Shown here: piece by piece, positions 9,861-53,961 of the stretch | Position numbering within the stretch: the stretch's first letter is position 1 | Layout: every line of letters starts with the position of its first letter | DNA from: Candidatus Methylomirabilota bacterium | GTDB taxonomy: Bacteria; Methylomirabilota; Methylomirabilia; Rokubacteriales; DASRDR01 | NCBI GenBank assembly: GCA_036005065.1 | Contig: DASYQW010000197.1 | Location: 1 to 64,000, forward strand | Reading direction: 5' to 3' | DNA length: 64,000 bases | Notes under the pieces: generated by a model | Told to the model about the DNA's origin: nothing | Database searches by the model: none | What the model saw: only the letters and a program-made list of their open reading frames with translations | Position numbers and translations under genes: made by a program

Positions 9861-11006
9861 GTGGACTTCGAGCTGACCGAGGAGCAGACGCTGGTCCGCC
9901 GGACCGCGCGGGAGTTCGCGGAGGGCGAGGTCGCGCCCGTCATCGCGCGCTTCGACGAGGCGGAGGAGTTCCCGGCCGAGCTCATCCGGAAGCTCGGCGA
10001 GCTCGGGTTCCTGGGCGCCCTGGTCCCCGCCGAGTACGGCGGCGCCGGTCTCGACTACGTCTCCTACGCGGTGGTGGTCGAGGAGCTCTCCCGCATCGAC
10101 GGCTCGATCGGCATCACCATGTGGGCGCACAACTCGCTCTGCACGAACCACATCCACATGTTCGGGACCGAGGCCCAGCGGCAGAAGTACCTCCCGTCCC
10201 TCTGCCGGGGCGAGACGCTGGGCGCCTGGGGGCTCACCGAGCCGGGCTCCGGCTCCGACGCGGCCGGCATGAAGACGGTCGCCGTCGAGGACGCGGACGC
10301 CTATGTCCTCACCGGCTCCAAGGCGTTCATCACCAACGGCAGCGTGGGGGCGACCGCGGTCGTCATGGCCCGGACCGATCCGGCCGCCGGAGCCCGGGGG
10401 GTCTCGGCCTTCATCCTCGAGCGAGGCATGCCGGGGTTCCGCGCGGGCCAGCGGTACAGGAAGCTCGGGCTCCACGCCTCCGACACGGCCGAGCTGATCC
10501 TGGAGGGCGTGCGGGTGCCCCGGGGGAACCTGCTCGGGACGAAGAACGGCGGCTTCGCCGAGGTGAAGCGCGTCCTGGAGGGCGGGCGGATCGCCATGGC
10601 CGCCATGGCCGTCGGACTCGCCCAGGGGGCCCTGGATCAGGCCGTGAAGTATGCCAGCGAGCGTCAGGCTTTCGGCCGGCCCATCGCCGAATTCCAGGGG
10701 ATCCAGGCCATGCTGGCCGACCTCGCCACCGAGGTGGAGGCGGCGCGCCTCCTCACGCTGCGCGCGGCCTACGGGAAGGACCGCGGCCGTCCCGTCATGA
10801 AGGAGGCGTCGATGGCCAAGGTCTTCGCCTCCGAGGTCGGGATGAAGTGCGCCACCAAGGCTGTGCAGATCCACGGCGGCTACGGGTACATCCGGGAGTT
10901 CCCCATCGAGCGCTTCTTCCGCGACGTGAAGCTCTGCGAGATCGGCGAGGGAACCTCCGAGGTGCAGCGGATGGTGATCGCTCGCCACCTCCTGGAGTCG
11001 CGGTAG
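9861..11006 (+). CDS. Acyl-CoA dehydrogenase (second copy)
   Basis: This 381-residue dehydrogenase is related to the one at 5292 and the same length. Motifs are WGLTEPGSGSDAAGM, TGSKAFITNGS, IHGGYGYIREFPIERFFRD and catalytic Glu363 in GEGTSEVQRMVIAR. The start is GTG at 9861, beginning at MDFELTEEQTLVRR. Two dehydrogenases, ETF and a B12 mutase together suggest oxidation of branched or short acyl-CoAs. Its TAG stop is the start of repeat copy B. Confidence 0.92.
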   Translation: MDFELTEEQTLVRRTAREFAEGEVAPVIARFDEAEEFPAELIRKLGELGFLGALVPAEYGGAGLDYVSYAVVVEELSRIDGSIGITMWAHNSLCTNHIHMFGTEAQRQKYLPSLCRGETLGAWGLTEPGSGSDAAGMKTVAVEDADAYVLTGSKAFITNGSVGATAVVMARTDPAAGARGVSAFILERGMPGFRAGQRYRKLGLHASDTAELILEGVRVPRGNLLGTKNGGFAEVKRVLEGGRIAMAAMAVGLAQGALDQAVKYASERQAFGRPIAEFQGIQAMLADLATEVEAARLLTLRAAYGKDRGRPVMKEASMAKVFASEVGMKCATKAVQIHGGYGYIREFPIERFFRDVKLCEIGEGTSEVQRMVIARHLLESR

Positions 11007-11145
11007 GGCATTTCGGGGGGGTCTCGGAAGACCCCCCCGATACCCCCCCGTCGTGGCGGCGGCGAAGCCGCCGCTCGGAGCACTCCTCGATGCACCACGC
11101 GCTCGCTGGTCGGCGCCGGGTCGGATCACTCCGACATACGGCTAG
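11004..11145 (+). repeat. Family 1 repeat copy B
   Basis: The copy begins with the stop codon TAG of the dehydrogenase and ends at CTAG (11142-11145). It has three parts: the G-run/C-run hairpin (11015-11040), the hairpin GGCGGCGGCGAAGCCGCCGC (from 11054), and a tail with TCGATGCACCACGCG and CTCCGACATACGG. A family 2 copy follows directly. Confidence 0.85.
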
Positions 11146-11207
11146 GATCTCGGAGGGGATCTCTGCCCCCCTTCCGACGGCCCTCGCCGAACGGATCGGG
11201 CCTGAAT
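11142..11207 (+). repeat. Family 2 repeat, degenerate copy
   Basis: CTAGGATCTCGGAGGGG, then CTGCCCCCCTTCCGACGGCC and CCGAACGGATCGGGCCTG, match the family 2 copies at 42862, 44562 and 33441. It shares its CTAG with family 1 copy B and ends just before livH. Confidence 0.65.
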
Positions 11208-11210
11208 TCG

Positions 11211-12089
11211 GTGATGCCTGACCTGGCCGAGCTCGTGACCCAGCTTCTGAACGGCGTCGTCCTGGGGCTCCTCTATGCCCTGATCGCCCTCGGGTTCATG
11301 CTCATCCTGGGCACGATGGAGGTGATCAACTTCACGCACGGGGTCCTCTTCGCCCTCGGCGGGTACCTGGCCCTCTCCCTCCAGCCGCACGTCGGGTGGT
11401 GGGGGGCGCTGATCCTGGCGCCGCTGGGCGTGGGCGTGGTGGGTCTCCTCCTGGAGCTGGGTGTCCGCCGGACCTACGGCAAGGACCCGCTCTTCGGCCT
11501 TCTCTTCACCTTCGGCGCGGCCCTGGCGCTGGAGGAAGTCATCCGGATCGTCTGGGGCCCTCGGGGCTACACGGTCGCCGCCCCGGCCTTCGTGGCCGGC
11601 CCCTTCCAGTGGGGCTTCCTCTTCTACTCCCGCTACCGGGTGCTGGTCGCGGTCCTGGCCCTTCTCCTCCTGGCCTTCGTGTGGTGGTTTCTCGAGCGGA
11701 CGCCGTACGGCGCCATCATCAAGGCCGGCGCCCACGACAGCGAGATGGTCGTGGCGCTCGGGATCAACCTGCGCCGGATGCGGAACCTGGTGTTCGGGCT
11801 GGGCGCCGTCATGGCCGGCGTGGCCGGCGTCATCGCGGCGCCGATGTGGAGCCTCAAGCCCACGGTCGGCGCGGAGGCCGTCATGCCGGCCTTCATCGTG
11901 GTCGTGATCGGCGGGATCGGCTCCTTCTGGGGGGCGGTGGTCGGCGGCCTGCTCCTCGGCATGGTCAGCGGCCTCAGCAACCTGGTGGTCCCCCGGGGCT
12001 CTATCCTCGTGATGTATCTCCTGATGACCGTCGTCCTGCTCTGGCGCCCGCGGGGGCTCATGGGCCAGAAATCCATTTTGGAACTCTAA
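11211..12089 (+). CDS. livH: Branched-chain amino acid-type ABC transporter permease (LivH family)
   Basis: This inner-membrane permease has about eight hydrophobic helices. The family segment INFTHGVLFALGGYLAL lies near residue 40 and ITHRMRNLVFGL-like EAA loop sequence (GINLRRMRNLVFGLGA) near 185. The end WRPRGLMGQ is typical of LivH. GTG at 11211 or the adjacent ATG at 11214 starts it. It heads livHMGF; the periplasmic binding protein (LivK) is missing from the window. Confidence 0.9.
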   Translation: MMPDLAELVTQLLNGVVLGLLYALIALGFMLILGTMEVINFTHGVLFALGGYLALSLQPHVGWWGALILAPLGVGVVGLLLELGVRRTYGKDPLFGLLFTFGAALALEEVIRIVWGPRGYTVAAPAFVAGPFQWGFLFYSRYRVLVAVLALLLLAFVWWFLERTPYGAIIKAGAHDSEMVVALGINLRRMRNLVFGLGAVMAGVAGVIAAPMWSLKPTVGAEAVMPAFIVVVIGGIGSFWGAVVGGLLLGMVSGLSNLVVPRGSILVMYLLMTVVLLWRPRGLMGQKSILEL

Positions 12090-12093
12090 CCCC

Positions 12094-13101
12094 GTGCGCG
12101 CGCTCAACCGCTGGGCTCCGCCGCCGATGCTGGCTCTGTTCGTCTTCTTCCTGGCGTTGCCGGCGGTCCTTCCGCGGTTCGGCTACACCTATCTCGGGAC
12201 CGAGGTCATGATCTGGGCGATCTTCGCCCTCGGCTACAACCTCCTGCTCGGCTACACGGGCCTCCCGGCCTTCGGCCACGGCGCGTTCTTCGGCGTCGGC
12301 GCCTACTTCCTCGGGATGAGCCAGAAGTGGTGGACCGGCGGGCTCTGGTTACCGCTCCTGGTCGGCGTCGGGGGGACCGTCGTGTGCGGCGCCCTGGTGG
12401 GTCGCTTCGTGGCGCGGAAGCGGGGCATCTATTTCGCGCTCCTCACCATCGCGTTCGGGGTGATGTTCTGGTTCCTCGTCTTCGTCTTCGACACGTGGAC
12501 CGGGGGCGAGGACGGCCTGACCGGGATCAGCCGGCTCGCCGTCGGCCTCCCGGGGGTCGGGTACCTGCCGCTCCGCGGGAACGTCGCCTTCTATTACTTC
12601 GTGTATGCCTGGTTCCTGGTCTCGACGGTGTGCCTCTGGCGGATCGTCAACTCGCCGTTCGGGCAGGTGATCCGAGCCATCAAGCAGAGCGAGGTGCGGG
12701 CGCGCGCCCTGGGATACGACACCGCGCGGTACAAGTGGGCGGTCTTCACCCTGACCTGTGTCTTCGCGGGCCTGGCCGGCGGGCTGTACGGGCTCGCCCG
12801 CTTCGGCGCCTTCCCCGAGCCGATGAGTCTCCAGCAGTCGGGTAACGTGGTCCTGATGTGTCTCATCGGGGGCGGCTTCGCGAGCTTCTATGGTCCGGTG
12901 CTGGGGGTGGTCGTCTTCCTGGTGCTCCGCGACCTCTTTTCGACCCTCACCGACCACTGGATGCTCCTCTACGGGCTCCTGTTCATGGGCGTCATCCTCT
13001 TCATGCCCGAGGGGATCATGGGGCTCGCCCAGCGGGTCCGGCGACCGACCGGCTTCCACGACACCACGGCCGGCCCGCTCCCGCTTCGGCCGCCGTCATG
13101 A
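12094..13101 (+). CDS. livM: Branched-chain amino acid-type ABC transporter permease (LivM family)
   Basis: This 335-residue second permease contains the LivM hallmarks YNLLLGYTGLPAFGHGAFFG (near residue 48) and NSPFGQVIRAIKQSEVRARA, the coupling helix. The end FMPEGIMGLAQRVRR is typical. The GTG start lies 4 bases past livH. It overlaps livG by 4 bases (ATGA). Confidence 0.92.
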   Translation: MRALNRWAPPPMLALFVFFLALPAVLPRFGYTYLGTEVMIWAIFALGYNLLLGYTGLPAFGHGAFFGVGAYFLGMSQKWWTGGLWLPLLVGVGGTVVCGALVGRFVARKRGIYFALLTIAFGVMFWFLVFVFDTWTGGEDGLTGISRLAVGLPGVGYLPLRGNVAFYYFVYAWFLVSTVCLWRIVNSPFGQVIRAIKQSEVRARALGYDTARYKWAVFTLTCVFAGLAGGLYGLARFGAFPEPMSLQQSGNVVLMCLIGGGFASFYGPVLGVVVFLVLRDLFSTLTDHWMLLYGLLFMGVILFMPEGIMGLAQRVRRPTGFHDTTAGPLPLRPPS

Positions 13102-13868
13102 CGACGCCGGACGCGGTCCTCGAGACTCGCGGCCTGCGCAAGGCCTTCGGCGGCCACGTCGTCCTGGAGGACGTGAACCTGGCCTTCGCGGCCAACCGCC
13201 TCTCCGCGCTCATCGGCCCGAACGGCGCGGGCAAGACGACCTGCTTCAATCTCCTGAGCGGGCTGCTCGCGCCCGACCGAGGCCAGATCCGCTTCAAGGG
13301 CCGGGACATCACGCCACTCCCGCCCGACCGCCGAGCCCGCCTCGGGATCTGCCGCTCGTTCCAGATCCTCACCCTGTTCGACGACTACACCGTGCTGGAG
13401 AACGTCCGGGTCGCCGTTCCCGGCCTGCGGGCTCGCGGCTTCGATCTGTGGACCCCGGCGCCGGCGCTCAGCCAGGCGGAGGACAAGGCGGCCCGGATCA
13501 TCCGGCTGATCGGCCTCGGCGGGCGGGAGCACGTGGCGGCCCGGTATCTTTCCTACGGCCAGCGCCGCCTGCTCGAGATCGGCCTCGCGCTGGCCGGTGA
13601 GCCGGAGGTCCTCCTCCTGGACGAGCCGACCAGCGGGCTGGGCGCCCGTCCGATGGAGACGCTGCGCGACCTGGTGAAGATGCTGTCCGCCGAGCTGACG
13701 ATCGTGGTCATCGAGCACGACATGAACTTCGTCCTCTCCCTCTCGGACCACATCGCCGTGCTCCATCGGGGCACCGTCATCGCGGAGGGGCCGCCGGAAG
13801 CGGTCCGGGACAACGCGGAGGTACGCGAGGCCTATCTCGGCCGGCTCACCCCGGCGCCGGCGCGGTGA
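13098..13868 (+). CDS. livG: Branched-chain amino acid-type ABC transporter ATP-binding protein (LivG family)
   Basis: This 256-residue ATPase has Walker A GPNGAGKTT (about 39-47), signature LSYGQRRLLEIGLAL (about 151) and Walker B VLLLDEPTSGLG. SFQILTLFDDYTVLENVRVA is the LivG Q-loop region. Family homology starts at the ATG at 13098, which overlaps the livM stop. Confidence 0.92.
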   Translation: MTTPDAVLETRGLRKAFGGHVVLEDVNLAFAANRLSALIGPNGAGKTTCFNLLSGLLAPDRGQIRFKGRDITPLPPDRRARLGICRSFQILTLFDDYTVLENVRVAVPGLRARGFDLWTPAPALSQAEDKAARIIRLIGLGGREHVAARYLSYGQRRLLEIGLALAGEPEVLLLDEPTSGLGARPMETLRDLVKMLSAELTIVVIEHDMNFVLSLSDHIAVLHRGTVIAEGPPEAVRDNAEVREAYLGRLTPAPAR

Positions 13869-14602: not shown

Positions 14603-14624
14603 GCGCCGCCACCCGCGCGCGGCC

Positions 14625-14653
14625 TTGCTCTCCGGCGGAAGCTGGGCTACAGT
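14625..14653 (+). promoter_or_regulatory. Promoter for the moxR gene cluster
   Basis: TTGCTC (14625-14630), a 17-base spacer and TACAGT (14648-14653). The same TTGCTC-17-TAC pattern occurs before rpsO. The leader to the GTG at 14727 is about 65 bases. Confidence 0.5.
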
Positions 14654-14726
14654 CCGGCCTACGCCATGGCCAAGCGCGACGTCGCCCGGCGAGTCGCTTC
14701 GCAGTGCCCTCTGGCGCGAGGATGAC

Positions 14727-15677
14727 GTGAGCCCCGACACTCCTCCATCGGCCGGCGAAGTGTTCCGCCGGATCGCCGGCAACATCGCGCGCGTCATGCA
14801 GGGGCAGTCGGCGGCGATCCGGAAGCTCCTGGCCGCCTTCGCGAGCGGCGGTCACGTCCTGCTGGAGGACTACCCGGGGACCGGCAAGACCACGCTGGCC
14901 AAGACCCTGGCCCGCTCCATCGGGGCCAAGTTCCGGCGCATCCAGTTCACGCCGGACCTGTTGCCGTCGGACATCCTGGGGGTGTCGGTCTTCGACCAGC
15001 GCGACCAGGCCTTCCACTTCCACGAAGGCCCGATCTTCACCAACATCCTGCTGGGCGACGAGATCAACCGGGCCTCGCCCCGCACGCAATCCGCCCTGCT
15101 CGAGGCCATGGGCGAGGGTCAGATCAGCATCGAGGGCCAGACCTATCGGCTCGCCGAGCTCTTCTTCGTGATCGCCACCCAGAACCCGGTCGAGTTCCGG
15201 GGCACCTATCCGCTGCCGGAAGCCCAGATGGACCGCTTCGCGCTCCAGTTCGGCCTCGGCTACGTCGCGCCCGACGAGGAGGTGGCGATCCTGTCCGATC
15301 AGGAGAAGCGGCACCCGCTCGAGGACATCACCCCCTGCGTCACGCTGGAGGACGTGGTCCGGCTGCGCCAGCGGGTCACCGAGATCCGGGTGAGCGACGA
15401 GCTGAAGCGCTACATCGTCGACCTCGTGCGCGGGACGCGATCGGCACCCGGGATCCAGCTCGGCGCCAGTCCTCGCGCCTCGCTGGCGCTGATGAAGGTC
15501 GCCCAGGCGTTGGCCCTGCTGGACGGCCGGCCGTTCATCGCTCCCGAGCACATCCAGGAGGTCGCCGTCTCCGTCATCGCGCATCGGATGGTCGTCGACC
15601 CTCAGACACGCTTCGCCGGGACCACGGCGTCGCAGATCGTCGAAGACATCATGAAACGGATCCCGGTACCGGCCTAG
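14727..15677 (+). CDS. MoxR-family AAA+ ATPase
   Basis: This 316-residue AAA+ ATPase is expected to act as a chaperone for von Willebrand-type or membrane-protein complexes. Seen: Walker A EDYPGTGKTTLAK, Walker B LLGDEINRASPRTQSALLEAM, sensor 1 FFVIATQNPVEFRGTYPLPE and the C-terminal lid with LGASPRASLALMKVAQA. The GTG at 14727 with GCGAGGAT before it gives the usual family length. It forms a module with DUF58 and transglutaminase genes, the common MoxR gene neighbourhood. Its TAG stop is one end of repeat copy C. Confidence 0.92.
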   Translation: MSPDTPPSAGEVFRRIAGNIARVMQGQSAAIRKLLAAFASGGHVLLEDYPGTGKTTLAKTLARSIGAKFRRIQFTPDLLPSDILGVSVFDQRDQAFHFHEGPIFTNILLGDEINRASPRTQSALLEAMGEGQISIEGQTYRLAELFFVIATQNPVEFRGTYPLPEAQMDRFALQFGLGYVAPDEEVAILSDQEKRHPLEDITPCVTLEDVVRLRQRVTEIRVSDELKRYIVDLVRGTRSAPGIQLGASPRASLALMKVAQALALLDGRPFIAPEHIQEVAVSVIAHRMVVDPQTRFAGTTASQIVEDIMKRIPVPA

Positions 15678-15812
15678 GTGTGGGCCCGAGTAACCCGGCG
15701 CCGCCCACCGAGCGTGTGGTGCATCGAGGAGTGCTCCCAGCGGCGGCTTCGCCGCCGCCCACGACGGGGGAGCATCGGGGAGGTCTTCCGAGACCCCCCC
15801 GAAGTGGGCTAG
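15674..15812 (-). repeat. Family 1 repeat copy C, complete and CTAG-bounded
   Basis: CTAG at 15674-15677 includes the moxR stop, and CTAG at 15809-15812 closes the copy. The orientation is opposite to copy B: the tail (CCGAGTAACCCGGCGCC) comes first, then CGGCGGCTTCGCCGCCG, then the hairpin AGGTCTTCCGAGACCCCCCC. Because it lies between two plus-strand genes, the hairpin cannot be explained only as a terminator placed behind a gene. Confidence 0.85.
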
Positions 15813-15865
15813 CCGGGAGGCTACCGGTGGAGCCGGCCGGGCTGGCCCCGTCTCGCTGACCGTCG

Positions 15866-17206: not shown

Positions 17207-17298
17207 CCACGCTGACGGCAGCCTCTGGGACAACCGCGACGTTGAACCCGGGCCGAGCCCCGAGCAGCTCTAGGACGCAGGCCCGAGCCGGTGCGAGG

Positions 17299-17313
17299 CG
17301 TATGCCGCATACG
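17299..17313. repeat. 15-bp perfect palindrome in the DUF58-transglutaminase gap
   Basis: CGTATGC-C-GCATACG sits in the 169-bp gap (17207-17375). It could be an operator or a small hairpin; no gene or promoter is visible in the rest of the gap. Confidence 0.4.
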
Positions 17314-17375
17314 TTGAGCGCCGGCGAGGGCCGAGGACGACGGGATGCGACGGGGATCGGCCCGGGGCAAGAGCT

Positions 17376-19364: not shown

Positions 19365-19369
19365 GAGCG

Positions 19370-20380: not shown

Positions 20381-20408
20381 GCGGCCCGGAGCCGGCGGAC
20401 AGGGCGTC

Positions 20409-21233: not shown

Positions 21234-21272
21234 CCGCGATGGCCGCCGTGCCAGGACTCGCGTCCAATCGCG

Positions 21273-22235: not shown

Positions 22236-23227
22236 CCAGACCGGCCCTCCTCGAGGTCCAGGGCCTCCAGACGCACTACCGCCTGGGAGGGCGCCTGGGC
22301 GGCTGGCCGGGGCGGCCGCGGTGGCTCCGGGCCGTGGATGGCGTGAGCCTCACCATCGGCCGCCAGGAGACGCTCGCCCTCGTCGGCGAGTCGGGCTCGG
22401 GGAAGACGACCTTCGGGCGCACGATCCTCCGGCTGGTCGAGCCCACCGCCGGCCGGATCCTGCTCGATGGCCAGGACATCACGCGTCTCCCGCAGGCGGC
22501 CTTGCGGCCGCTCAGGCGGCGGATCCAGATCGTCTTCCAGAACCCGTACGCCTCGCTGAATCCCCGCAAGACCGTGCGGCAGATCATCGGGCAACCGCTG
22601 CGGGTGCATCGGGTGCCGGGCGATCCCGAAGAGATGGTCGCCGACCTTCTCCAGCGCGTCGGGCTCCCGCCCGAGGCGAGGCGGCGTTATCCCCACGAGT
22701 TCTCGGGCGGCCAGCGCCAGCGGATCGCGATCGCCCGCGCGCTCGCGCTCCATCCCGACCTCGTGGTCGCCGACGAGGTCACCTCGGGACTCGACGTGAC
22801 CGTGAAGCTCCGGGTCCTCGGCCTCCTCCGCGAGCTTCAGGCCGAGTTCCGCGTCGCGTACCTCTTCATCTCCCACGACCTTGCCGTCGTGCGTCAGATC
22901 GCGGACCGGGTCGCCGTGATGTATCTGGGCCAGATCGTCGAGGAGGCGCCCACCTCGGCACTCTTCGAGCGTCCCCTGCACCCCTACACGCAGATCCTCT
23001 ACCGCTCGGTGCCGGCGCCGGATCCCACCGTGGCCTGGCGTCCCCCGGTGCTTCGCGGCGAGCCGCCGAGCGCCGTCGAGATTCCCGCCGGATGCCGATT
23101 CCACCCGCGCTGCCCGTTCGCCGAGGTCCAGTGCACGAGCGAGGTCCCGACTCTGCGCGAGCTCGCTCCCGGCCACCGCGTCGCCTGCCACCTGGCGCCC
23201 GCGGTGTCGCTGGACAGCCGTGACTAG
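22232..23227 (+). CDS. Oligopeptide-type ABC transporter ATP-binding protein (DppF family)
   Basis: This 331-residue ATPase has Walker [28 protein letters not shown], signature [15 protein letters not shown], Walker [17 protein letters not shown] and the C-terminal cysteine motif [13 protein letters not shown]. Walker B carries Val instead of the usual Pro (DEVTSGLD), as in several DppF proteins. The GTG at 22232 overlaps the previous stop by 3 bases. Its TAG stop lies in the CTAG of repeat fragment D. Confidence 0.92.
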
Positions 23228-23242
23228 GTCATTTCGGGGGGG
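23224..23242 (+). repeat. Family 1 repeat fragment D
   Basis: Only the first part is present: CTAGGTCATTTCGGGGGGG, identical to the start of copy E. The TAG is the stop of the DppF-type gene. The remainder up to 23335 shows no further repeat. Confidence 0.6.
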
Positions 23243-23335
23243 TGCGCCGGCGCCACCCAGGTGTGGCAGCCGTGTGGGAAGGTCGGGTACGATACCTCAT
23301 GGATGTTCGTGGGCGGCGGACCGGGTGACCCCACC

Positions 23336-23821: not shown

Positions 23822-23822
23822 G

Positions 23823-29907: not shown

Positions 29908-30933
29908 ATGGGACGGGACATCGTCGAGCTGAAGCGCCGGGACTTCCTACGCACGGCGGGCGTGGCTGCCTCGGCCCTGGCCGCCGGAAGCCCGTGGCCG
30001 AGGCGGGCCAGCGCCCAGGGCGCGAAGGGGAAGGTCCGCTTCGCCTACCTCCAGCTCGGCTGGGCGGCGTGCGAGATCGTCCACAAGGAGGACCTTCTCG
30101 GCAAGCGCGGCTGGCAGGCCGAGTACAACGTCGTGCCCGGCTCCCCGGCCGGCCTGGTCAACACCTTCGCCGCCGGCAACGTGGACGCCATCGACATGTC
30201 TTTCGCGCTCACGGCGAAGATGTTCGAGGACAAGGTGCCGCTCAAGGTCACGGGGGTGGCCACCGCGGTGCTGGGGGCGGTGGTGGCGCGAAAGGATTCG
30301 GGAATCACGAGGGTGGAGGACCTCCGCGGCCGGAAGATCGCGGCCGTGGTAGGCACCTCGACCTTCTTCGACATCCGAACGCTCACCCTCAAGGGCTACG
30401 GGTTCGACCTCCAGAAGGACGCCCAGATCGTCACCGCCCAGGCGCCGCCCGACATGGCGACGCTGATGGCCAAGAAGGAAGTCGACGCCATCGTCGCCTG
30501 GCAGCCGATCTCCGATCAGGTGGTGTTCCGCGGCGACGGCGTGTACCTGGCCAAGCAGATCGACCTCTGGCGGAAGGCCACCGGGCGCCAGGCCGGGTAC
30601 CCGGTGCACGTCTGCTACGTCGTGAACCCGACCTTCATCGAGAAGAGCCCCGCCTTTGCCAGGGACCTGAACGACGCCCAGAAGGAAGCCGTCGACATCT
30701 GGTATGGAAAGAAGGGTCGCGCCATCGAGATCGTGACCGAGGTCACCAAGATTCCGCGCGACGTGGTGGAGTACGCCTACGGGCAGACGGTCCAGATGCT
30801 CCACGGCCTGTCCGACGAGCAGATCGACACGCTCACCCTGCAGCTCCAGCTCACCAGGGAGTCGGGCTTCCTGAAGTCCGACATCTGGGACAGCCCGGAG
30901 CGGCTCCGGAAGGAGTTCTTCTGGCGCGGCTAG
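29908..30933 (+). CDS. ABC transporter substrate-binding protein (NitT/TauT/SsuA type)
   Basis: This 341-residue periplasmic binding protein has a Tat-like signal (KRRDFLRTAGVAASALAAG, cleavage after ASA near residue 37). The family core includes NTFAAGNVDAIDMSFALTAKM and DLRGRKIAAVVGTSTFFDI, then KKEVDAIVAWQPISDQVV. The ATG at 29908 has GGAGGAA 7 bases upstream. It begins a binding protein-permease-ATPase set (permease 31149, ATPase 32631). Ligands in this class include sulfonates, taurine, nitrate and aromatic acids. Its stop lies in repeat copy E. Confidence 0.92.
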   Translation: MGRDIVELKRRDFLRTAGVAASALAAGSPWPRRASAQGAKGKVRFAYLQLGWAACEIVHKEDLLGKRGWQAEYNVVPGSPAGLVNTFAAGNVDAIDMSFALTAKMFEDKVPLKVTGVATAVLGAVVARKDSGITRVEDLRGRKIAAVVGTSTFFDIRTLTLKGYGFDLQKDAQIVTAQAPPDMATLMAKKEVDAIVAWQPISDQVVFRGDGVYLAKQIDLWRKATGRQAGYPVHVCYVVNPTFIEKSPAFARDLNDAQKEAVDIWYGKKGRAIEIVTEVTKIPRDVVEYAYGQTVQMLHGLSDEQIDTLTLQLQLTRESGFLKSDIWDSPERLRKEFFWRG

Positions 30934-31128
30934 GTCATTTCGGGGGGGTCTCGGAAGACTCCCCCGATGCCCCCCTAACGGCGCGCCGCAAGACGTCGCG
31001 GGGCTGGGGCCCCGCCGTCCGAGGCGCGCGAACCCAAAGTGGCGGCGGCGAAGCCGCCGCTCGGAGCACTCCTCGATGCACCACCGGCTCGGTGGTCGGC
31101 GCCGGGTTACTCGGACACACCCCTGCGT
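30930..31128 (+). repeat. Family 1 repeat copy E, with an internal insertion
   Basis: CTAG at 30930-30933 carries the stop of the binding-protein gene. The G-run hairpin follows, then about 60 extra bases (about 30977-31037) that contain their own hairpin GCGGGG-CTGGGG-CCCCGC, then GGCGGCGGCGAAGCCGCCGC and the tail TCGATGCACCACCGGCTCGG...TTACTCGGACACACC. No CTAG is found at the right end. Confidence 0.8.
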
Positions 31129-31979: not shown

Positions 31980-31980
31980 C

Positions 31981-34642: not shown

Positions 34643-34792
34643 ATGATCAAGAAGACGGCCAAAGGCTACGTGCTCTACTCGAAGGACGGCTCGAAGAAGC
34701 TGGGCGGGCCGTACAAGACGCGGGACGCGGCGCTCAAGCGCGAGCGTCAGGTCCAGTTCTTCAAGCACGCGAAGGGAAGGCGCGCGGGGTAG
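34643..34792 (+). CDS. Small basic protein, unknown
   Basis: This 49-residue protein begins MIKKTAKGYVLYSKDGSKKL and continues GGPYKTRDAALKRERQVQFF. It begins 6 bases after the dehydrogenase stop, with GAAGAG upstream. The pattern (a short beta-hairpin with 'KKLGGPYKTRDAALKRERQV') resembles small single-domain proteins seen in phage and bacterial genomes, but no function is known to me. Its TAG stop is at the boundary of repeat fragment G. Confidence 0.7.
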   Translation: MIKKTAKGYVLYSKDGSKKLGGPYKTRDAALKRERQVQFFKHAKGRRAG

Positions 34793-34848
34793 GCGTGGGT
34801 CCGAGTAACCCCGCGCCGACCACCGAGCGCGTGGTACATCGAGGAGAA
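34789..34848 (-). repeat. Family 1 repeat fragment G (tail part only)
   Basis: GTAG with the upstream stop codon, then CGTGGGTCCGAGTAACCCC, GCGCCGACCACCGAGCGCGT and CATCGAGGAG. Both hairpins are missing and the sequence runs into the ribosome binding site of the next gene. Confidence 0.65.
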
Positions 34849-36490: not shown

Positions 36491-36649
36491 GTGGCGATCA
36501 CACCGAGCGCCTCCTACATCATTCCGAGCGTCTTCAACAAGAAGGTCGCGCCGGCCGTCGCCCGTGAAGTCGTCCAGGCGGCCCAGCGGGCCGGCGTGGC
36601 GCGCCGAAGCGGCGGTCCGGCCCGCCGTCCCGGGGGTGTGTCTGAGTGA
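36491..36649 (+). pseudogene. 3' remnant of a malic enzyme gene
   Basis: The 52-residue reading frame contains ITPSASYIIPSVFNKKVAPA followed by VAREVVQAAQRAGVARR, which is the C-terminal end of NAD(P)-dependent malic enzymes. The other roughly 400-700 residues are missing; upstream lies the intact lipoprotein gene. The last residues and the TGA stop come from repeat copy H. It looks like a deletion scar, not a working gene. Confidence 0.7.
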
Positions 36650-36770
36650 GCGGGCGCCTACCACCGACCGCGTCGTGCATCGAGGAGCCTTTCGAGCGGC
36701 GGCTTCGCCGCCGCCACCCTCCCGGGGGAGGTTTGGGAGGGGGCCGTCGAGGCCCCCTCCCATGATCTAA
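36630..36770 (-). repeat. Family 1 repeat copy H (subtype with double hairpin)
   Basis: Tail GGTGTGTCTGAGTGAGCGGG, then TCGTGCATCGAGGAG, the GCGGCGGCTTCGCCGCCGC hairpin, and a variant end with CTCCCGGGGGAGG followed by GGGAGGGGGCC and GGCCCCCTCCC. It ends CTAA (36767-36770) instead of CTAG. Copy J is the same subtype. Confidence 0.8.
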
Positions 36771-40514: not shown

Positions 40515-40537
40515 CCGAGATCGATCCGGACGTCACG

Positions 40538-40568: not shown

Positions 40569-40583
40569 CATGAGGGGTGGGAG

Positions 40584-41645: not shown

Positions 41646-42865
41646 GCCCCGCTATGGCCGAGATCGAGTGGATCGAGGGCGGGATCACGGCCGTCCCCGG
41701 GATCTTCGGCGCCGGCCTCCACTGCGGGATCAAGCCCGGCTCGGCCCGCGACCTGGCCCTCGTCTACTCGTCGGCGCCGGCCACGGCGGCCGGGGTCTTC
41801 ACGACCAACCGGATCCAGAGCGCGCCGGTCAAGATCTCGCGGGAGCGCGTGCAGGCCGGGGTCGCCCAGGCGATCGTGGCCTCCAGCGGGTGCTCGAACG
41901 TGTGTACCGGCGAGCAGGGGCTCCGGGACGCTCGCGAGATGACGGAGGTCGTCGCCCGTGAGCTCCGTATCCCGGAAACCCGGGTGCTGGTGGCCTCGAC
42001 CGGCATCATCGGACGGTACCTGCCGATGGACCGCATCCGGCCGGCCCTGCCCAAGCTCGTCAAGGCCCTGTCGCCCCAGGGCAGCCGGCACGCGGCCGAG
42101 GGGATCATGACGACCGATACCCACCCGAAGGAGGCCGCGCTGCGCGTGGAGATCGGCGGGCGCCCGATCACCATCGGGGCGATCGCGAAGGGAACGGGCA
42201 TGATCCACCCGATGATGGCCACCATGTTCTGCTTCGTGGCCACCGACCTGGCGGTATCGCGGGACGCGCTCCAGGCGGCCATCCGGCGCGCCGCGAACGG
42301 CTCGTTCAATCGCATCAGCGTCGACGGCGACATGAGCACCAGTGACACGGTGGTGATCCTGGCCAACGGGCTGGCCGAGAATCGCCCGCTGGCCCGCGGC
42401 GACCGGCGACTCCGGGTATTCCAGCACGCGCTGGACGGGCTGACCCAGCGGCTGGCGGTCATGCAGGTCCGGGACGGCGAGGGCGCCACGCTCGTGATCG
42501 ACGTGCAGGTACGCGGGGCCAAGACCCGGCGAGACGCCGAGGCCGCCGCCCGGGCCATCGCCAACTCGCCCCTCTTCAAGACGTCCATGGCCGGCCGTGA
42601 CCCGAACTGGGGGCGCGTGATGGCCGCGCTGGGAGCCTCCGGGATCCCGGTCCAGGAGGAGCGGGTCGGCATCTGGTATGGTGACGAGCAGGTCGCGGCC
42701 GGCGGCAAGCCCAGGGAGAACGTCCGCTGGGAGCGGGTCAAGGCGGAGCTGGCCAAGCCCGAGGTCACGCTCATCGTGGATCTCGGGCTCGGCGGAGGCC
42801 ACGACCACGTCTGGACCTGCGATCTGACGGAGGACTACGTTAAGATAAACACTGGCACGAGCTAG
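41642..42865 (+). CDS. argJ: Glutamate N-acetyltransferase / amino-acid N-acetyltransferase
   Basis: This 407-residue protein transfers the acetyl group from N-acetylornithine to glutamate, and may make N-acetylglutamate from acetyl-CoA. The precursor cleaves itself between Ala193 and Thr194 (MMATMF), with Thr194 as nucleophile. [11 protein letters not shown] and the C-terminal [12 protein letters not shown] are typical. The ATG overlaps argC (ATGA). Its TAG stop is in the CTAG of a family 2 repeat. Confidence 0.95.
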
Positions 42866-42975
42866 ATCATCGGAGGGGGGCTATGCCCCCCTCCGACGGC
42901 CCCCGCGGCAAAGCCGCGGCCGTCCGCATTCGCGGACGGCTTCGGGGCCTGCCTCCCCCAAGGAGTGGGGGAAGG
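42862..42975 (+). repeat. Family 2 repeat, best copy
   Basis: CTAG (42862-42865, with the argJ stop), ATCAT, then the hairpin CGGAGGGGGG-CTATG-CCCCCCTCCG. A second hairpin CCGCGGC-AAA-GCCGCGG, a third GTCCGC-ATTC-GCGGAC and the tail GGGCCTGCCTCC follow. A T-run is absent, so this is a hairpin terminator only in the broad sense. The rest of the gap to rpsB (42976-43081) shows no clear promoter. Confidence 0.8.
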
Positions 42976-43091
42976 AGCGATTGGGAGGTGCCACGGCGGG
43001 CCGACGCCTGCCCATCTCACACGCGTCCCGGTGTCGGTGGCGGGGATGGTCCCCGCAGGGGACGCGGAGGCGAACCGAACCAGGAGGTCAA

Positions 43092-43892: not shown

Positions 43893-43961
43893 CGCCGACC
43901 CGGTGCCTGTCGGCTACCGGGCCGCGCCCGGAGGCGAGGACTGAGGAGGAACCCAGAGACC

Positions 43962-44561
43962 ATGGCCACGACGGCGGAGCGAGTACGCGAGCTTCGGGAC
44001 AAGACCGGAGCCGGCGTAATGGACTGCAAGGAGGCGCTGGCCGCCTCGCAGGACGACCTCGAGAAGGCGGTCGACTACCTGCGCAAGAAGGGGCTGGCCT
44101 CGGCGGCCAAGCGCGCGCATCGCGAGGCGCGCGACGGCGTGGTGGGGGCGTACATCCATCACGGCGGCAAGCTCGGGGTGCTCGTCGAGGTGAACTGCGA
44201 GACGGACTTCGTGGCCCGTACCGAGCAGTTCCAGGACCTCGTCAAGGTCCTGGCCATGCAGGTGGCAGCCGCCAACCCGACCTACGTGTCGCGGGAGGAG
44301 GTGCCGCCGGCGGTGATCGAGCGCGAGAAGGAGATCTACCGCCAGCAGGTGGCCGACCAGAAGAAGCCGCCCCAGGTACTGGAGAAGATCATCGAGGGGA
44401 AGCTCGCGAAGTTTTACGAGGAGACCTGCCTCCTCGACCAGGCCTACGTCAGGGATCCGAGTGGCAAGACGCGCGTGAAGGACGTCGTCGGCGAGCTCAG
44501 CGCCAAGACGAGCGAGAAGATCGCCGTCCGGCGATTCGCCCGGTTCCAGGTCGGCGAGTAA
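43962..44561 (+). CDS. tsf: Elongation factor Ts (short form)
   Basis: This 199-residue guanine-nucleotide exchange factor for EF-Tu starts VRELRDKTGAGVMDCKEAL, with the TDFV motif (CETDFVARTEQFQDLV). It lacks the second half of the dimerisation module found in the 283-residue E. coli protein, like the short Thermus-type EF-Ts. GAGGAGGAA precedes the ATG. Its TAA stop abuts a family 2 repeat. Confidence 0.95.
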   Translation: MATTAERVRELRDKTGAGVMDCKEALAASQDDLEKAVDYLRKKGLASAAKRAHREARDGVVGAYIHHGGKLGVLVEVNCETDFVARTEQFQDLVKVLAMQVAAANPTYVSREEVPPAVIEREKEIYRQQVADQKKPPQVLEKIIEGKLAKFYEETCLLDQAYVRDPSGKTRVKDVVGELSAKTSEKIAVRRFARFQVGE

Positions 44562-44705
44562 TCTTCGGAGGGGGGCTTTGCCCCCCTCCGACGGCCCTCC
44601 CGGCGGTGGCCGGGCCGGTCTGACCGATGAGCGGCCGGGACGGTGTCCCGGCCGTGGCGGCGACCGGATCGGGCCTGCCTCCTCCAAGGAAGGCCAGGAG
44701 GGAGA
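44562..44705 (+). repeat. Family 2 repeat between tsf and pyrH
   Basis: Directly after the tsf stop: TCTTCGGAGGGGGG-CTTTG-CCCCCCTCCGACGGCC, a second hairpin region CCCGGCGGTGGCCGGG, a third CGGCCGGGAC-GGT-GTCCCGGCCG, then CGGATCGGGCCTGCCTCC. The hairpins fill the whole tsf-pyrH gap, an unusual place for terminator-like structures inside a conserved operon. Confidence 0.75.
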
Positions 44706-45452: not shown

Positions 45453-45456
45453 GATC

Positions 45457-46817: not shown

Positions 46818-46845
46818 GAGCCCCGCTACCTGGCCGGGCGGGCGA

Positions 46846-47649
46846 GTGCTCGCTCAGCGCGCTCTCCTCGCGGTCGTCGCCATCCCGCTGATCGTGGCCC
46901 TGGTGTGGCTGGCGCCGGCCTGGCTCTTCGCGGCCTTCGTCCTCGTGCTGGCGCTGGTCGCGCAGTGGGAGCTGTACCGGATGTTCGCCCGGGTCGGTGT
47001 GGCGGCCGAGCAGGCGGCCGGGTTCCTCCTGGGGGGGAGCGTCGTCCTGGCCTTCGCGTTCGGAGGATCGCTGCGGCCCTGGCTGGTGTCGCTGGCGCTC
47101 TCGCTGGCGGTGGCCGGCTGCCTCGCGCTGGGGCTGGGCCGCGGGTCCGGGGTGGCGCCCGACTGGGCGGGCATCGCGCTGACGCTGCTCGGCATCTGCT
47201 ACTGCGCCTGGCTGCTCGGGCACGCGATCTGGCTCCGGGCCCTCCCGGACGGCGCGGCGCTGACGCTCCTCGTCCTGGGGGTGACCTGGTGCGGCGAGAC
47301 CGCCGCCTACTTCGTGGGACGACGCTGGGGCCGGCGCAAGCTCGCGCCGCGGATCAGCCCGGCCAAGACCGTCGAGGGCGCGGTGGCCCAGGTTCTGGTC
47401 TCGGTCGCCGCCGCCCTCCTGACCGTCCGGATGGGTGTGCTCACGCCGTGGCATGCGATCGGGATCGGGCTCACCCTCGGCGTCCTCGCCCAGGTCGGGG
47501 ATCTCACCGAGTCCTTTCTCAAGCGCAGCGCCGAGACGAAAGACGCCAGTCGCTTGCTGCCGGGGCACGGCGGGCTGCTCGATCGATTAGACTCCTTGCT
47601 CTTCAACGTCCCCGCCCTGTATTATTATGTGAAACTTTTTTCCAGCTAG
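46846..47649 (+). CDS. cdsA: Phosphatidate cytidylyltransferase (CDP-diglyceride synthase)
   Basis: This 267-residue membrane enzyme makes CDP-diacylglycerol for phospholipids. It has about eight helices and the signature SFLKRSAETKDASRLLPGHG followed by GLLDRLDSLLF at the C-terminus. SPAKTVEGAVAQV is conserved too. GTG start at 46846. Its TAG stop is one border of repeat copy I. Confidence 0.94.
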   Translation: MLAQRALLAVVAIPLIVALVWLAPAWLFAAFVLVLALVAQWELYRMFARVGVAAEQAAGFLLGGSVVLAFAFGGSLRPWLVSLALSLAVAGCLALGLGRGSGVAPDWAGIALTLLGICYCAWLLGHAIWLRALPDGAALTLLVLGVTWCGETAAYFVGRRWGRRKLAPRISPAKTVEGAVAQVLVSVAAALLTVRMGVLTPWHAIGIGLTLGVLAQVGDLTESFLKRSAETKDASRLLPGHGGLLDRLDSLLFNVPALYYYVKLFSS

Positions 47650-47799
47650 GACCTTTGGTATTGACCGCGCGCGGCGGGATGTCCGGCCGCCGCGGGCATG
47701 GCGGTCCGCTCCGAGCGGCGGCTTTGCCGCCGCCGCGACGGGGGGGCCTCGGGGGGGTCTTCCGAGACCCCCCGAAGAGCTGGCCGCAGTGAGGACTAG
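47646..47799 (-). repeat. Family 1 repeat copy I, CTAG-bounded
   Basis: CTAG (47646-47649) includes the cdsA stop; CTAG (47796-47799) is the other border, just before dxr. Between them: a diverged tail, GCTCCGAGCGGCGGC-TTT-GCCGCCGCCGC and the hairpin GGGGGGGTCTTCCGAGACCC. It splits the conserved cdsA-dxr pair. Confidence 0.82.
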
Positions 47800-47805
47800 T
47801 CGACC

Positions 47806-48981: not shown

Positions 48982-48985
48982 AAGC

Positions 48986-50473: not shown

Positions 50474-50481
50474 AGGGATTC

Positions 50482-51600
50482 ATGACGACCACTCCGGTCC
50501 AGCTCGGCCCCCGTCGCCGGGCTCGGCCCCTGCAGCTCGGCAAGGTGGAGGTCGGGGGCGACGCCCTCATCACGGTGCAGTCCATGACCAAGACCGACAC
50601 CCGCAACGTCGAGGCCACCGTCGACCAGATCTGGGCGCTGGAGGCAGCCGGCTGCGAGATCGTGCGGGTCGCGGTGCCGGTCAAAGAGGCGGCCGAGAAG
50701 CTGGCGGCGATCAAGAAGCAGATCCGGATCCCGCTGGTGGCCGACATCCATTTCAACTACAAGCTCGCGCTGAAGGCGCTCGAGCAGGGAGTCGACGGGC
50801 TCCGTCTCAATCCGGGCAACATCGGCGGCAAGCAATTCGTGATGGAGGTCGTCAACCTCGCCAAGGAGCGGCGCATCCCCATCCGCATCGGCGTGAACGC
50901 CGGGTCGCTCGAGAAGGACCTCCTGGCGCGCGACAACGGCCCCACCGCCCGTGGCATGGTCGATTCGGCCCTCCGGCACATCCGGATCCTGGAGGACTGC
51001 GGCTACCCCGAGATGAAGATCTCGCTGAAGGCCTCCGATCCGGCGATGATGATCGAGGCCTACCGGCTGCTGGCCGACCAGGTGGACTACCCGTTCCATC
51101 TCGGCGTCACCGAGGCCGGGACGCCCACGATCGGCGCCATCAAGTCGGCGGTCGGCATCGGGACGCTGCTGGCGGAGGGGATCGGCGACACCATCCGGGT
51201 CTCGCTGTCGGCCGACCCCGTCGAGGAAGTGCGGGTCGGCCTCGAGATCCTGAAGGCCCTCGGGCTCCGGACGCAGGGCATCACCTTCGTCTCCTGCCCG
51301 GGCTGCGGGCGGATGGACGTGGATCTGGTGGGGCTGGCGGCGGCCGTGGAGAAGCGGCTCCAGGGGCTCAACAAGAACGTGCACGTGGCGGTGATGGGGT
51401 GTGAGGTCAACGGTCCCGGCGAGGCGCGGGGCGCCGACGTCGGCGTGGCCGGCGGCCGCGGCATCGGCCTCATCTTCCGCAAGGGCGAGGTCGTGCGGAA
51501 GGTGCCCGAGGCCCAGATCGTGGACGCGTTGTGGGAGGAGGCCCAGATCTTCCTCGCCGAGCAGGAGGCGGCGGAGAAGGCCGTCCGCGCGGACGACTAG
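50482..51600 (+). CDS. ispG: 4-hydroxy-3-methylbut-2-en-1-yl diphosphate synthase
   Basis: This 372-residue [4Fe-4S] enzyme catalyses the penultimate step of the non-mevalonate isoprenoid pathway. Cluster ligands are Cys272 and Cys275 (SCPGCGR), Cys307 (MGCEVNGPGEA) and Glu314. The TIM barrel includes ADIHFNYKLAL and RLNPGNIGG. ATG at 50482 after GAGGGATTC. The reaction needs an external electron donor; a ferredoxin gene is next. Its TAG stop borders repeat copy J. Confidence 0.96.
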   Translation: MTTTPVQLGPRRRARPLQLGKVEVGGDALITVQSMTKTDTRNVEATVDQIWALEAAGCEIVRVAVPVKEAAEKLAAIKKQIRIPLVADIHFNYKLALKALEQGVDGLRLNPGNIGGKQFVMEVVNLAKERRIPIRIGVNAGSLEKDLLARDNGPTARGMVDSALRHIRILEDCGYPEMKISLKASDPAMMIEAYRLLADQVDYPFHLGVTEAGTPTIGAIKSAVGIGTLLAEGIGDTIRVSLSADPVEEVRVGLEILKALGLRTQGITFVSCPGCGRMDVDLVGLAAAVEKRLQGLNKNVHVAVMGCEVNGPGEARGADVGVAGGRGIGLIFRKGEVVRKVPEAQIVDALWEEAQIFLAEQEAAEKAVRADD

Positions 51601-51739
51601 GCGCGTGTCGGAGTAATCAGCGGCCGATGACCCCAATCACGGAATGCGTCGAGTAGCGTCAGAGCGGCGGCTTCGCCGCCGCCACCCTCCTCGGGGGAGG
51701 TTTCGGAGGGGGCCGTGGAGGCCCCCTCCGATGAACTAG
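51597..51739 (-). repeat. Family 1 repeat copy J, CTAG-bounded (subtype with double hairpin)
   Basis: CTAG at both ends (51597-51600, including the ispG stop, and 51736-51739). Tail CGTGTCGGAGTAATCAGCGG, the GCGGCGGC-TTC-GCCGCCGC hairpin, then CTCCTCGGGGGAGG and GGAGGGGGCC-GTGGA-GGCCCCCTCC. The downstream gene starts 5 bases beyond. Confidence 0.85.
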
Positions 51740-51744
51740 GCGGC

Positions 51745-52083
51745 ATGGGTCAGTACGAGAAGCACGTCTTCGTGTGCACGACCGGGAGCACCTGCCCGAC
51801 GCAGGGTGACACCGACGCCTACGTGAAGTACATGCGCGCGGAGATCGCCAAGGCGGGCCTCCACGTCCAGATTCGGATCAACAAATCGGGCTGCTTCTCC
51901 CAGTGCGGCAACGGCCCGATGATCGTCGTCTATCCGGAAGACGTCTGGTACGCCGGGATCCGAGCCGAGGACCTGCCGGAGATCGTCCAGTCCCACCTCA
52001 TCGGAGGGAAGCCCGTCGAGCGCCTCCGCTACCGCCCGGGCAAGCCCGGTCCCAACGTCATCGTCGCCAAAGACAGGCACTGA
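51745..52083 (+). CDS. Thioredoxin-like [2Fe-2S] ferredoxin
   Basis: This 112-residue protein has the fold of Shethna-type and NuoE-like ferredoxins, with cluster cysteines Cys11, Cys17, Cys50 and Cys54 (VCTTGSTCPTQG and KSGCFSQCGNGP) and IVVYPEDVWYAGI. It is a one-electron carrier. Position directly after ispG suggests, but does not prove, that it supplies electrons to that enzyme. The ATG at 51745 is chosen because family homology starts there. Confidence 0.93.
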   Translation: MGQYEKHVFVCTTGSTCPTQGDTDAYVKYMRAEIAKAGLHVQIRINKSGCFSQCGNGPMIVVYPEDVWYAGIRAEDLPEIVQSHLIGGKPVERLRYRPGKPGPNVIVAKDRH

Positions 52084-52121
52084 GTCTCCGGCTCTCACTG
52101 CGCACCCCTCCCGCGACTGCC

Positions 52122-53825
52122 ATGCGCTGGAGCACGTCGTTCATCCCGACCCTCCGTGAGGACCCGGCCGACGCCGAAGCCGTGAGCCATCGGCTGATGG
52201 TCCGGGCCGGGCTCGTCCGCCAGCTCACCGCCGGGATCTACGTCTACCTGCCGCTCGGCCAGCGCGTCATCGACCGCGTCAACGCCATCATCCGGGAAGA
52301 GATGAACGCGATCGGCGGCCAGGAGATCACGATGCCGGTGCTGCATCCGGCCGAGCTCTGGCAGCAGAGCGGGCGCTGGTACGACATCAAGGACGAGATG
52401 TTCCGCCTGAAGGACCGCCACGGCCGCGACCTCTGCCTCGGCATGACCCACGAGGAAGTGGTGGCCTGGCTGGCCGCCAAGGAGATCCGATCGTACCGGG
52501 AGCTACCCCAGGTCTGGTATCAGATCCAGACCAAGGAGCGGGACGAGGCGCGACCCCGCTCCGGCGTCCTCCGCACGCGCGAGTTCTGGATGAAGGACGC
52601 CTATACCCTCGATGTCGACGAAGCGGGTCTGGCCAAGGCCTACGACCTCCAGAAGGAGGCGTACATCCGGATCTTCCAGCGCTGCGGCCTCCGCGTCCAC
52701 GTCGTCGAGTCGGACCCCGGGATGATGGGCGGGCTCGGCGCCCACGAGTTCATGGCGCCGAGCGCGGCCGGCGAGGACGACATCGCGCTGTGCGAGGGGT
52801 GCGGCTACGCGGCCAACCTCGAGCTGGCGGGCTCCCGCCCGGCGGCGCCGAGCTTCCGGGACTCTTCGCGGGAGGAGGTGGCCACGCCCGGCGTGCGCAC
52901 GATCGCCGACGTCTGCGCCCTCCTCGAGGTAGAGCCGGCGCTCACGCTCAAGACGCTCGTCTTCGTGGCGAAGGCCGGCCCTGTCCTGGCCCTGGTGCGC
53001 GGGGACCAGCAGGTGCACGAGAAGAAGCTGACCCGCGTCCTGGGAGGCGAGGTCCGCCCCGCCCACCCCGATGAAGTGCAGGAGGCGCTCGGCGCGCCGG
53101 TCGGTTCGGTGGGCCCGGTCGGGGCCAGGCTCCCCATCGTCGCGGACGAGACGCTCCGGGAGGGCGTCTACGTCTGCGGGGCGAACCGGGAGGGGTTCCA
53201 CTGGAAGGGGATCCGCCCCGGACGCGACTTCACGGTGACGCAGTACGCCGACATCCACGCGGCCCAGGCTGGCGAGGGGTGCCCCCGCTGCGGGAAGGCC
53301 CTTCGGGTCGAGCGCGTGATCGAGGTCGGCAACATCTTCAAGCTCGGCACGAAGTACTCGGTGCCACTCAAGGCCGTCTACCTCGACGAGCGGGGTCAGG
53401 AGCGGCCGATCGTCATGGGATCCTACGGCATCGGCCCGGCGCGGATCGCCGCCGCGGCCATCGAGCAGCGCCACGATGCCGACGGGATCGTGTGGCCCTG
53501 GTCGATCGCGCCCTCCCACGTCCACGTGCTTCCCGTGAATGTGAAGGACGGCGGCGTCCGCGACACCGCCGAGCGCCTCTACCGAGAGCTCCGAGAGGCC
53601 GGCTTCGACGTCCTCCTCGACGACCGGGACGAGCGCCCCGGCGTCAAGTTCAAGGATGCGGACCTCCTCGGGATCCCCCTGCGGGTCACGGTGGGGGCGC
53701 TCCTCGCCAAGGAGGGCCGGGTCGAGGTACGGGCCCGGCGGGACAGGCAGGACGTCAAGGTCCCGCCGGCCGAAGTGAGCGCGACCGTGAAGGATCTGGC
53801 TCGCCGCCTCGCCGAGGCGCCCTAG
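52122..53825 (+). CDS. proS: Prolyl-tRNA synthetase (bacterial type, with editing domain)
   Basis: This 567-residue class II synthetase has motif 1 (RQLTAGIYVYLPLGQRVIDR), motif 2 (QVWYQIQTKERDEARPRSG), the inserted editing domain (about 235-385), motif 3 (SYGIGPARIAAAAIEQ) and a C-terminal anticodon-binding domain. ATG at 52122. Its TAG stop lies in the first CTAG of repeat copy K. Confidence 0.96.
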   Translation: MRWSTSFIPTLREDPADAEAVSHRLMVRAGLVRQLTAGIYVYLPLGQRVIDRVNAIIREEMNAIGGQEITMPVLHPAELWQQSGRWYDIKDEMFRLKDRHGRDLCLGMTHEEVVAWLAAKEIRSYRELPQVWYQIQTKERDEARPRSGVLRTREFWMKDAYTLDVDEAGLAKAYDLQKEAYIRIFQRCGLRVHVVESDPGMMGGLGAHEFMAPSAAGEDDIALCEGCGYAANLELAGSRPAAPSFRDSSREEVATPGVRTIADVCALLEVEPALTLKTLVFVAKAGPVLALVRGDQQVHEKKLTRVLGGEVRPAHPDEVQEALGAPVGSVGPVGARLPIVADETLREGVYVCGANREGFHWKGIRPGRDFTVTQYADIHAAQAGEGCPRCGKALRVERVIEVGNIFKLGTKYSVPLKAVYLDERGQERPIVMGSYGIGPARIAAAAIEQRHDADGIVWPWSIAPSHVHVLPVNVKDGGVRDTAERLYRELREAGFDVLLDDRDERPGVKFKDADLLGIPLRVTVGALLAKEGRVEVRARRDRQDVKVPPAEVSATVKDLARRLAEAP

Positions 53826-53961
53826 GCTCTTCGGGGGGGTCTGGGAAGACCCCCCGATGCCCCCCCTCGGTTGCGGCGGCACAGCCGCCGCTCGGAGCGC
53901 TGCTCGACGCATCGCCCGCGCGGGGCGAGCTGCCGGGTTACTCCGACACGCCCCGAGCTAG
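53822..53961 (+). repeat. Family 1 repeat copy K, complete and CTAG-bounded
   Basis: CTAG 53822-53825 (proS stop) and CTAG 53958-53961. Order as in copy B: CTTCGGGGGGGTCTGGGAAG hairpin, GCGGCGGCACAGCCGCCGC hairpin, then CTGCTCGACGCATCG and GTTACTCCGACACGCC. Inverted relative to copies C and J, yet bounded in the same way. Confidence 0.85.

Follow-up and report, generated by a model that had tools for sequence, protein, structure and literature searches.

The first 64,000 nucleotides of contig C197 (C197:1-64000, hereafter the window), from a genome of the order Rokubacteriales, carry copies of a 135-155 bp repeat built of two to three GC hairpins, which we interpret as members of one family of small, non-autonomous mobile elements whose insertion site is the tetranucleotide CTAG, which bring the right-hand CTAG with them as part of the element, and which are moved by an enzyme acting in trans; we put the probability of this reading at roughly 0.7. 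One part of it, the mobility of the repeat as a non-autonomous element that makes use of CTAG, has good support, with fixed borders, CTAG targeting, empty sites, nesting, placement at gene ends, and spread throughout the order all observed. The wider interest lies in the coincidence of a genome parasite's target word with stop codons, by which site choice alone makes hundreds of insertions harmless. The genome comprises 5.63 Mb in 419 contigs, is 98% complete, and is the sole member of its family in our comparison set, its nearest relatives sharing only the order. Copies were collected with an iterated nhmmer model and flanking genes were identified with Pfam; copy counts and the statistics on CTAG and stop codons refer to 1.51 Mb (27%) of this genome, the remaining 73% being covered through searches only, so that an autonomous copy could be missed there.

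The model recovered 57 copies from 381 kb of the genome, 99 from 856 kb, and 158 from 1.51 Mb; contigs chosen blind held 16 copies in 213 kb, which extrapolates to about 420 per genome and agrees with the 453 candidates of a first-look search of the whole genome. The element begins directly after the left tetramer with GAGYGTGTCGGAGTAAC and finishes as a strong hairpin, a linker of 5-8 nt, and CTAG. There are two right-hand types, A (GGGGGGGTCTTCCGAGACCCCCCCGAAATGAC-CTAG) and B (CCTGGGGGAGGTTTCGGAGGGGGCCGTCGAGGCCCCCTCCGATGAA-CTAG), which have in common the left end GAGYGTGTCGGAGTAACCCGG and the middle hairpin; the left end GAGCGTGTCGGAGTAA is present too in family f2 (L302), with related ends in L281 and L289. 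In an alignment anchored on the left motif, conservation starts at CTAG (C 0.70, T 0.50, A 0.63, G 0.79), with a flat profile outside it; in one anchored on the right hairpin, for copies with the common 6-nt linker, it stops at CTAG (C 0.95, T 0.95, A 0.90, G 0.86), and the profile beyond is flat; at both ends it thus falls to background exactly outside the tetramer. Two positions of the middle hairpin show swaps between C-G and G-C pairs (10 and 7 of 33 relatives' copies; 26 and 22 of 65 copies from the own genome), with pairing 100% kept in the relatives' copies. No Rfam covariance model matched the element above its curated cut-off, no terminal inverted repeats were seen in it, as a preliminary description of the window had already remarked, and our literature searches found no description of such elements. 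The family is nearly confined to one bacterial order and near-absent from the rest of the class: matches to the element core at E<=1e-8 occur in 56 of 60 genomes of the order vs 1 of the 35 remaining genomes of the phylum set. The right end of relatives' copies is frequently CTAN, as expected if selection keeps only the stop codon TAG.

Away from contig ends there are 404 CTAGs, with 61 in called genes, 143 at gene stops, and 200 intergenic, although called genes make up 88% of the DNA; coding DNA holds almost no CTAG whereas TAG stops often include it, so that insertions land at the ends of genes, and proteins are spared because most CTAGs are at stops or between genes. A perfect GC stem of >=8 bp adjoins 21.8% of CTAGs, vs 1-6% for nine control words, and only 1 of the 158 copies lies within a called gene. 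CTAG forms 65 of 110 stops that abut an element (a copy end within 12 nt) vs 82 of 1242 other stops (Fisher p=4e-40), an enrichment whose absence, according to the preliminary description, would have spoken against its idea. That description had listed ten copies in the window and suggested a non-autonomous mobile element that inserts at CTAG and spares proteins; the repeat is present at all ten places, and the suggestion is sustained by the fixed borders, by the empty sites described below, and by the scarcity of CTAG in genes. Four of these copies have CTAG at both ends, as described, and in the copy at 11004-11145, described as TAG/CTAG, the two end tetramers are GTAG and CTAG, whereas the count of five copies on in-frame TAG stops, for which Pfam confirmed the genes, proved too low: with the copies at 2447, 23224, 30930, and 34789 it rises to 9 of 10, that at 36630 being the only one off a TAG stop.

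Gene orientation adds a further regularity: among 129 copies with both neighbours known, divergent gaps are avoided (6 copies, vs 24% of intergenic DNA; p=5e-9) and convergent gaps favoured (47 copies, vs 14% of intergenic DNA; p=1e-10). Where a full copy has a stop at one end only, this is the right end in 41 copies and the left in 11 (p=4e-5), so that the strong right hairpin is usually turned towards the stop, whether by biased insertion or by selection. The GC3 skew of plus vs minus genes, with a correlation of 0.14, offered no usable proxy for the replication strand. The insertions also place strong hairpins at the 3' ends of mRNAs, and the position at gene 3' ends, the facing of the right hairpin, and the covarying stems together are what one would expect of transcription terminators or mRNA 3'-end stabilisers that never moved and are kept by selection after stops. 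We consider this explanation very unlikely, for hundreds of copies have a long common primary sequence with sharp CTAG borders, no T-run follows the hairpin, and relatives have orthologous empty sites at moxR, ispG, and cdsA, as well as there being nested copies with one CTAG between them. An additional 3'-end function may well exist, one that would not explain the spread of the element.

The empty sites, for which the preliminary description had recommended a search, were found at two loci with a single CTAG. At moxR, eight relatives have one CTAG stop, with the next start codon about 10-30 nt on; one further relative (G007) has a type-B copy at the same stop, and in still others the stop is TGA or GTAG. 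At ispG, the filled site in the window reads GACGACTAG-[element]-CTAG-gcggc-ATGGGTCAGTACGAG, and two relatives (G033 and G037) have GGACTAG-cacc-GTGGGTCAATATGAG, that is, a single CTAG with the next start 4 nt on. At a third locus, judged on gap lengths only, the cdsA-dxr gap falls short of that in the window by 151 nt in both G026 and G018 and by 157 nt in G010, the element plus one CTAG measuring 150 nt; a contig scan for close sister species yielded nothing beyond distant DXR homologues. Nesting is seen in head-to-tail copies with one common border tetramer (L045, L246, and L248, and, with the tetramer CTGG, L086), and in tail-to-tail copies with one common tetramer (L047). On contig C377, an IS630-type element (DDE_3; ends TGCTGTTCCAAC..GTTGGAACAGCA) that has CTAG on either side is lodged precisely between two copies, a type-A copy that adjoins it with its right end and a type-B copy that does so with its left, and at the moxR locus of G007 a miniature inverted-repeat transposable element (MITE) with IS630-like ends likewise lies between CTAGs; at least two unrelated kinds of element therefore use CTAG in the order. 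The latter block (L070) consists of the type-B copy followed by the MITE (ends TGCCGTTCCAAC) between two CTAGs, and as a whole it is flanked by a near-duplication of about 14 bp, AGACGGTGRGGCGA.

The preliminary description had held that the element duplicates a CTAG target. The presence of CTAG on both sides and the single CTAG of the empty sites agree with this, whereas the unequal preservation of the two tetramers fits it less well, since a CTAG duplicated at insertion should decay alike on the left and right where it does not act as a stop. Copies with a stop at the left end only have CTAG as right tetramer in 11 of 11 cases, and those with a stop at the right end only have a left CTAG in 10 of 41 (p=6e-6); copies with a stop at neither end have it on the right in 19 of 27 and on the left in 10 of 27. 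The right CTAG is thus far better conserved than the left even when it is not a stop, which suggests that it is borne by the element. In L095 and L113, moreover, the left tetramer is TCAG, which reads in frame as TGA for the flanking gene once the empty site is rejoined, and the right one is CTAG, a combination that fits an ancestral TGA stop replaced by the element-borne TAG; L272 has the same pattern by eye. Such a substitution of the gene's own stop by the right CTAG would amount to an unusual conversion of stop TGA to TAG.

Several observations weigh on the other side. Two full copies have equal tetramers other than CTAG, CCAG/CCAG and TTAG/TTAG, as a true target duplication gives, and a deleted copy in L031 likewise shows CCAG on either side; some of the copies without a stop lie at contig ends, where the stop may be uncalled; and among the right-stop copies that no longer have a stop in their left tetramer, most have a non-coding rejoined left flank, which implies that the decay of these tetramers from a stop followed the insertion and weakens the view that the asymmetry reflects a relaxed target. 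For the same reason the prediction that relaxed left targets truncated genes was rejected. A rival reading has the same element moved by a DDE-type transposase, whose staggered cut duplicates CTAG, or the TA within it, as in MITEs of the IS5 and IS630 families; the two CTAGs would start out identical, and the left one would decay because usually the right alone acts as a stop. We regard this as possible, at well under even odds. It would account for the single-CTAG empty sites and the matching tetramer pairs, DDE elements that use CTAG exist in the order (the genome's own IS630 and the MITE with its ends in G007, both between two CTAGs), and MITEPsy1 duplicates CTAG (PMC3189936). It sits less well with the absence of terminal inverted repeats, with the ends of the IS630 and of the two DDE_Tnp_1 loci, which differ from those of the element, with the retention of the right CTAG in 11 of 11 copies with a stop at the left end only, and with L095 and L113, which would need two changes, both stop-preserving. 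We favour, without regarding it as proven, a right CTAG that belongs to the element.

The search for an enzyme whose ends match the element returned none among Y1, Y2, DDE_Tnp_1, and IS630 loci, which weighs against our main reading. The genome has only two DDE_Tnp_1 genes, neither with matching ends, and the IS5/YTAR origin considered in the preliminary description is not supported, the more so as terminal inverted repeats are lacking; IS630 (DDE_3) was rejected as the source, its ends TGCTGTTCCAAC being unrelated. No Y1_Tnp (PF01797) was detected in this genome by a search that recovers this family from E. coli and from 11 of the 59 relatives, and none of the 16 Y1 loci of relatives has a copy of the element. 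This bears on the proposal that the copies are repetitive extragenic palindromes (REPs) or bacterial interspersed mosaic elements spread by a REP-associated tyrosine transposase (RAYT; TnpA-REP, a Y1 HUH transposase). The repeats resemble REPs in being short, extragenic, hairpin-forming, and high in copy number, in occurring as single hairpins and composites, and in having a tetranucleotide near the hairpin foot, and REPs are cleaved at CT dinucleotides (PMC8266576); given the Y1 results and a tetramer that is CTAG and lies 5-8 nt away from the hairpin, where a REP would have GTAG directly at the foot, we judge this proposal unlikely. An IS91-like Y2 rolling-circle transposase, with a hairpin by one terminus, no inverted repeats, and a tetranucleotide kept at one end, comes mechanistically closest to a one-sided CTAG, and 28 of the 59 relatives have IS91-type genes; we nevertheless give it the least credence of all, as the own genome has only a 158-aa Y2 fragment with no element ends nearby, and 0 of 29 Y2 loci of relatives have recognisable element ends. 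An autonomous long copy was not found within the 27% of the genome that was read, where left-only and right-only matches are truncations, and viral contigs contained no exact 20-mer of the element's right end. A left/right pair 1.9 kb apart in L272 was rejected as an autonomous copy because it brackets ordinary genes.

If the right CTAG does belong to the element, the cycle could run as follows. Insertion takes place at CTAG, or less often at a near-match such as TCAG; the element starts directly after the target tetramer and would bring its own right CTAG, so that every insertion would leave a CTAG at either end, of which the newly gained right one could act as the stop codon of an abutting gene and as the target for the next insertion. 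Insertions on gene ends would survive, and those in coding DNA would be removed by selection. An element-borne right CTAG would point to one-sided, single-strand (HUH-like) chemistry, and the trans-acting enzyme would probably recognise the folded hairpins. Tentatively, and with rather less than even confidence, we extend this to an order-specific element with CTAG at its two borders and without inverted repeats, spread by an undescribed one-sided single-strand enzyme, whose own CTAG stop replaces TGA or TAG and which, given how rare CTAG is in coding DNA, may have its safe-site strategy in common with the IS630 of the same genomes. The question that this raises is which enzyme moves an order-wide element without inverted repeats in a genome without a Y1 transposase.

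Table 1. Copies of the element, related modules, and flanking genes in the window
Feature	Position	Strand	Remarks
Left part of split copy	28..133	+	nhmmer match; broken in right-hairpin loop by IS1595-family transposon
IS1595-family transposon	134..2421		DUF3800 passenger gene; splits the 60/2450 copy; 8-bp duplication CTTCCGAG, inverted repeat GGGYAACAAYATACTTGACTAACCC
Right part of split copy	2422..2450	+	Ends CTAG 2447-2450 = TAG stop of minus-strand ABC transporter gene 2447-3220
Acyl-CoA dehydrogenase gene	9861..11006		Pfam
Full copy	11003..11145	-	Left CTAG 11142-11145; right end on GTAG, stop of acyl-CoA dehydrogenase
moxR	14760..15677		Pfam
Full type-A copy	15674..15812	+	CTAG both ends; left CTAG = moxR stop
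Right-end fragment	23224..23245	-	Ends CTAG = stop of oligopeptide ABC transporter ATPase gene
Copy with ~77 bp internal GC hairpin insert	30930..31126	-	Right CTAG = stop of NMT1-like binding-protein gene; left tetramer GCAG
Left-end fragment	34789..34847	+	Starts on GTAG stop
Type-B copy	36629..36770	+	Neither end on stop codon; right tetramer CTAA
Hairpin-only relative	42862..42896	-	CTAG stop + ATCAT + CGGAGGGGGGC..GCCCCCCTCCG; resembles right end alone
cdsA	46846..47649		Pfam
Copy	47646..47799	+	CTAG both ends; left CTAG = cdsA stop; gap lengths in relatives indicate absence there
ispG/GcpE	50482..51600		Pfam
Type-B copy	51597..51739	+	CTAG both ends; left CTAG = ispG stop; single-CTAG empty site in G033, G037
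Prolyl-tRNA synthetase gene (proS)	52122..53825		Pfam
Type-A copy	53822..53961	-	CTAG both ends; right CTAG = proS stop

Some further observations concern individual copies and other repeats. Three copies have a similar internal GC-hairpin insert of about 77 bp (window 30940-31117, L038 18359-18533, and L100 6374-6538) and apparently form a third subtype. Hairpin-only modules of the form CGGAGGGGGGC..GCCCCCCTCCGA stand directly after stop codons at 42862-42896 and 44561-44595 of the window, and both look like the element's right end on its own. Certain copies at contig ends (L118 vs L032 and L043; L037 vs L038) have one flank that matches another copy and the other flank a third, and look like chimeras of repeat assembly. 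An unrelated second structured repeat occurs at about 17210-17370 of the window and at seven other places (L050, L223, L230, L231, L259, L265, and L267); it holds CTAGGACGCAGG and GAGGCGTATGCCGCATACGTTGAG between complementary closing ends GGGCCGAG..ATCGGCCCG, is without an Rfam match in the window, and is possibly an RNA or another mobile element.

Among known systems, the GTAG-type REPs with their RAYTs (REPtrons) are likewise short GC hairpins for which single-strand mobilisation in trans has been proposed (PMC3733652, PMC8266576), and the likeness extends to hundreds of extragenic copies, composites, and a tetranucleotide beside the hairpin; in the present element, however, the tetranucleotide is CTAG, lies 5-8 nt outside the hairpin, and stands at both ends of a unit of about 140 bp, the copies are on stop codons, and the genome has no RAYT gene. 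MITEPsy1 of Pseudomonas syringae, an IS5-like, non-autonomous element of about 100 bp (PMC3189936), is similarly flanked by CTAG, whereas the element described here has no terminal inverted repeats and no parent was found for it in our searches. For the IS630/Tc1-mariner group, a preference for the TA within CTAG was reported by Tenzen and Ohtsubo (1991), as cited in PMC2170065. The use of CTAG is common to that group and our element, as the IS630 lodged between two copies illustrates, but the ends are unrelated. Helitrons have CTRR at their end, preceded at a short distance by a hairpin, and lack inverted repeats; unlike Helitrons and IS91, the present element also has CTAG as its left-side target, and no Rep/helicase or intact Y2 gene was found in its genome. 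Finally, the IS200/IS605 group, with hairpins at both ends, inserts 3' of a fixed tetranucleotide without target duplication, and with this manner of insertion both the asymmetry of the two CTAGs and the copies with TCAG on the left and CTAG on the right agree.

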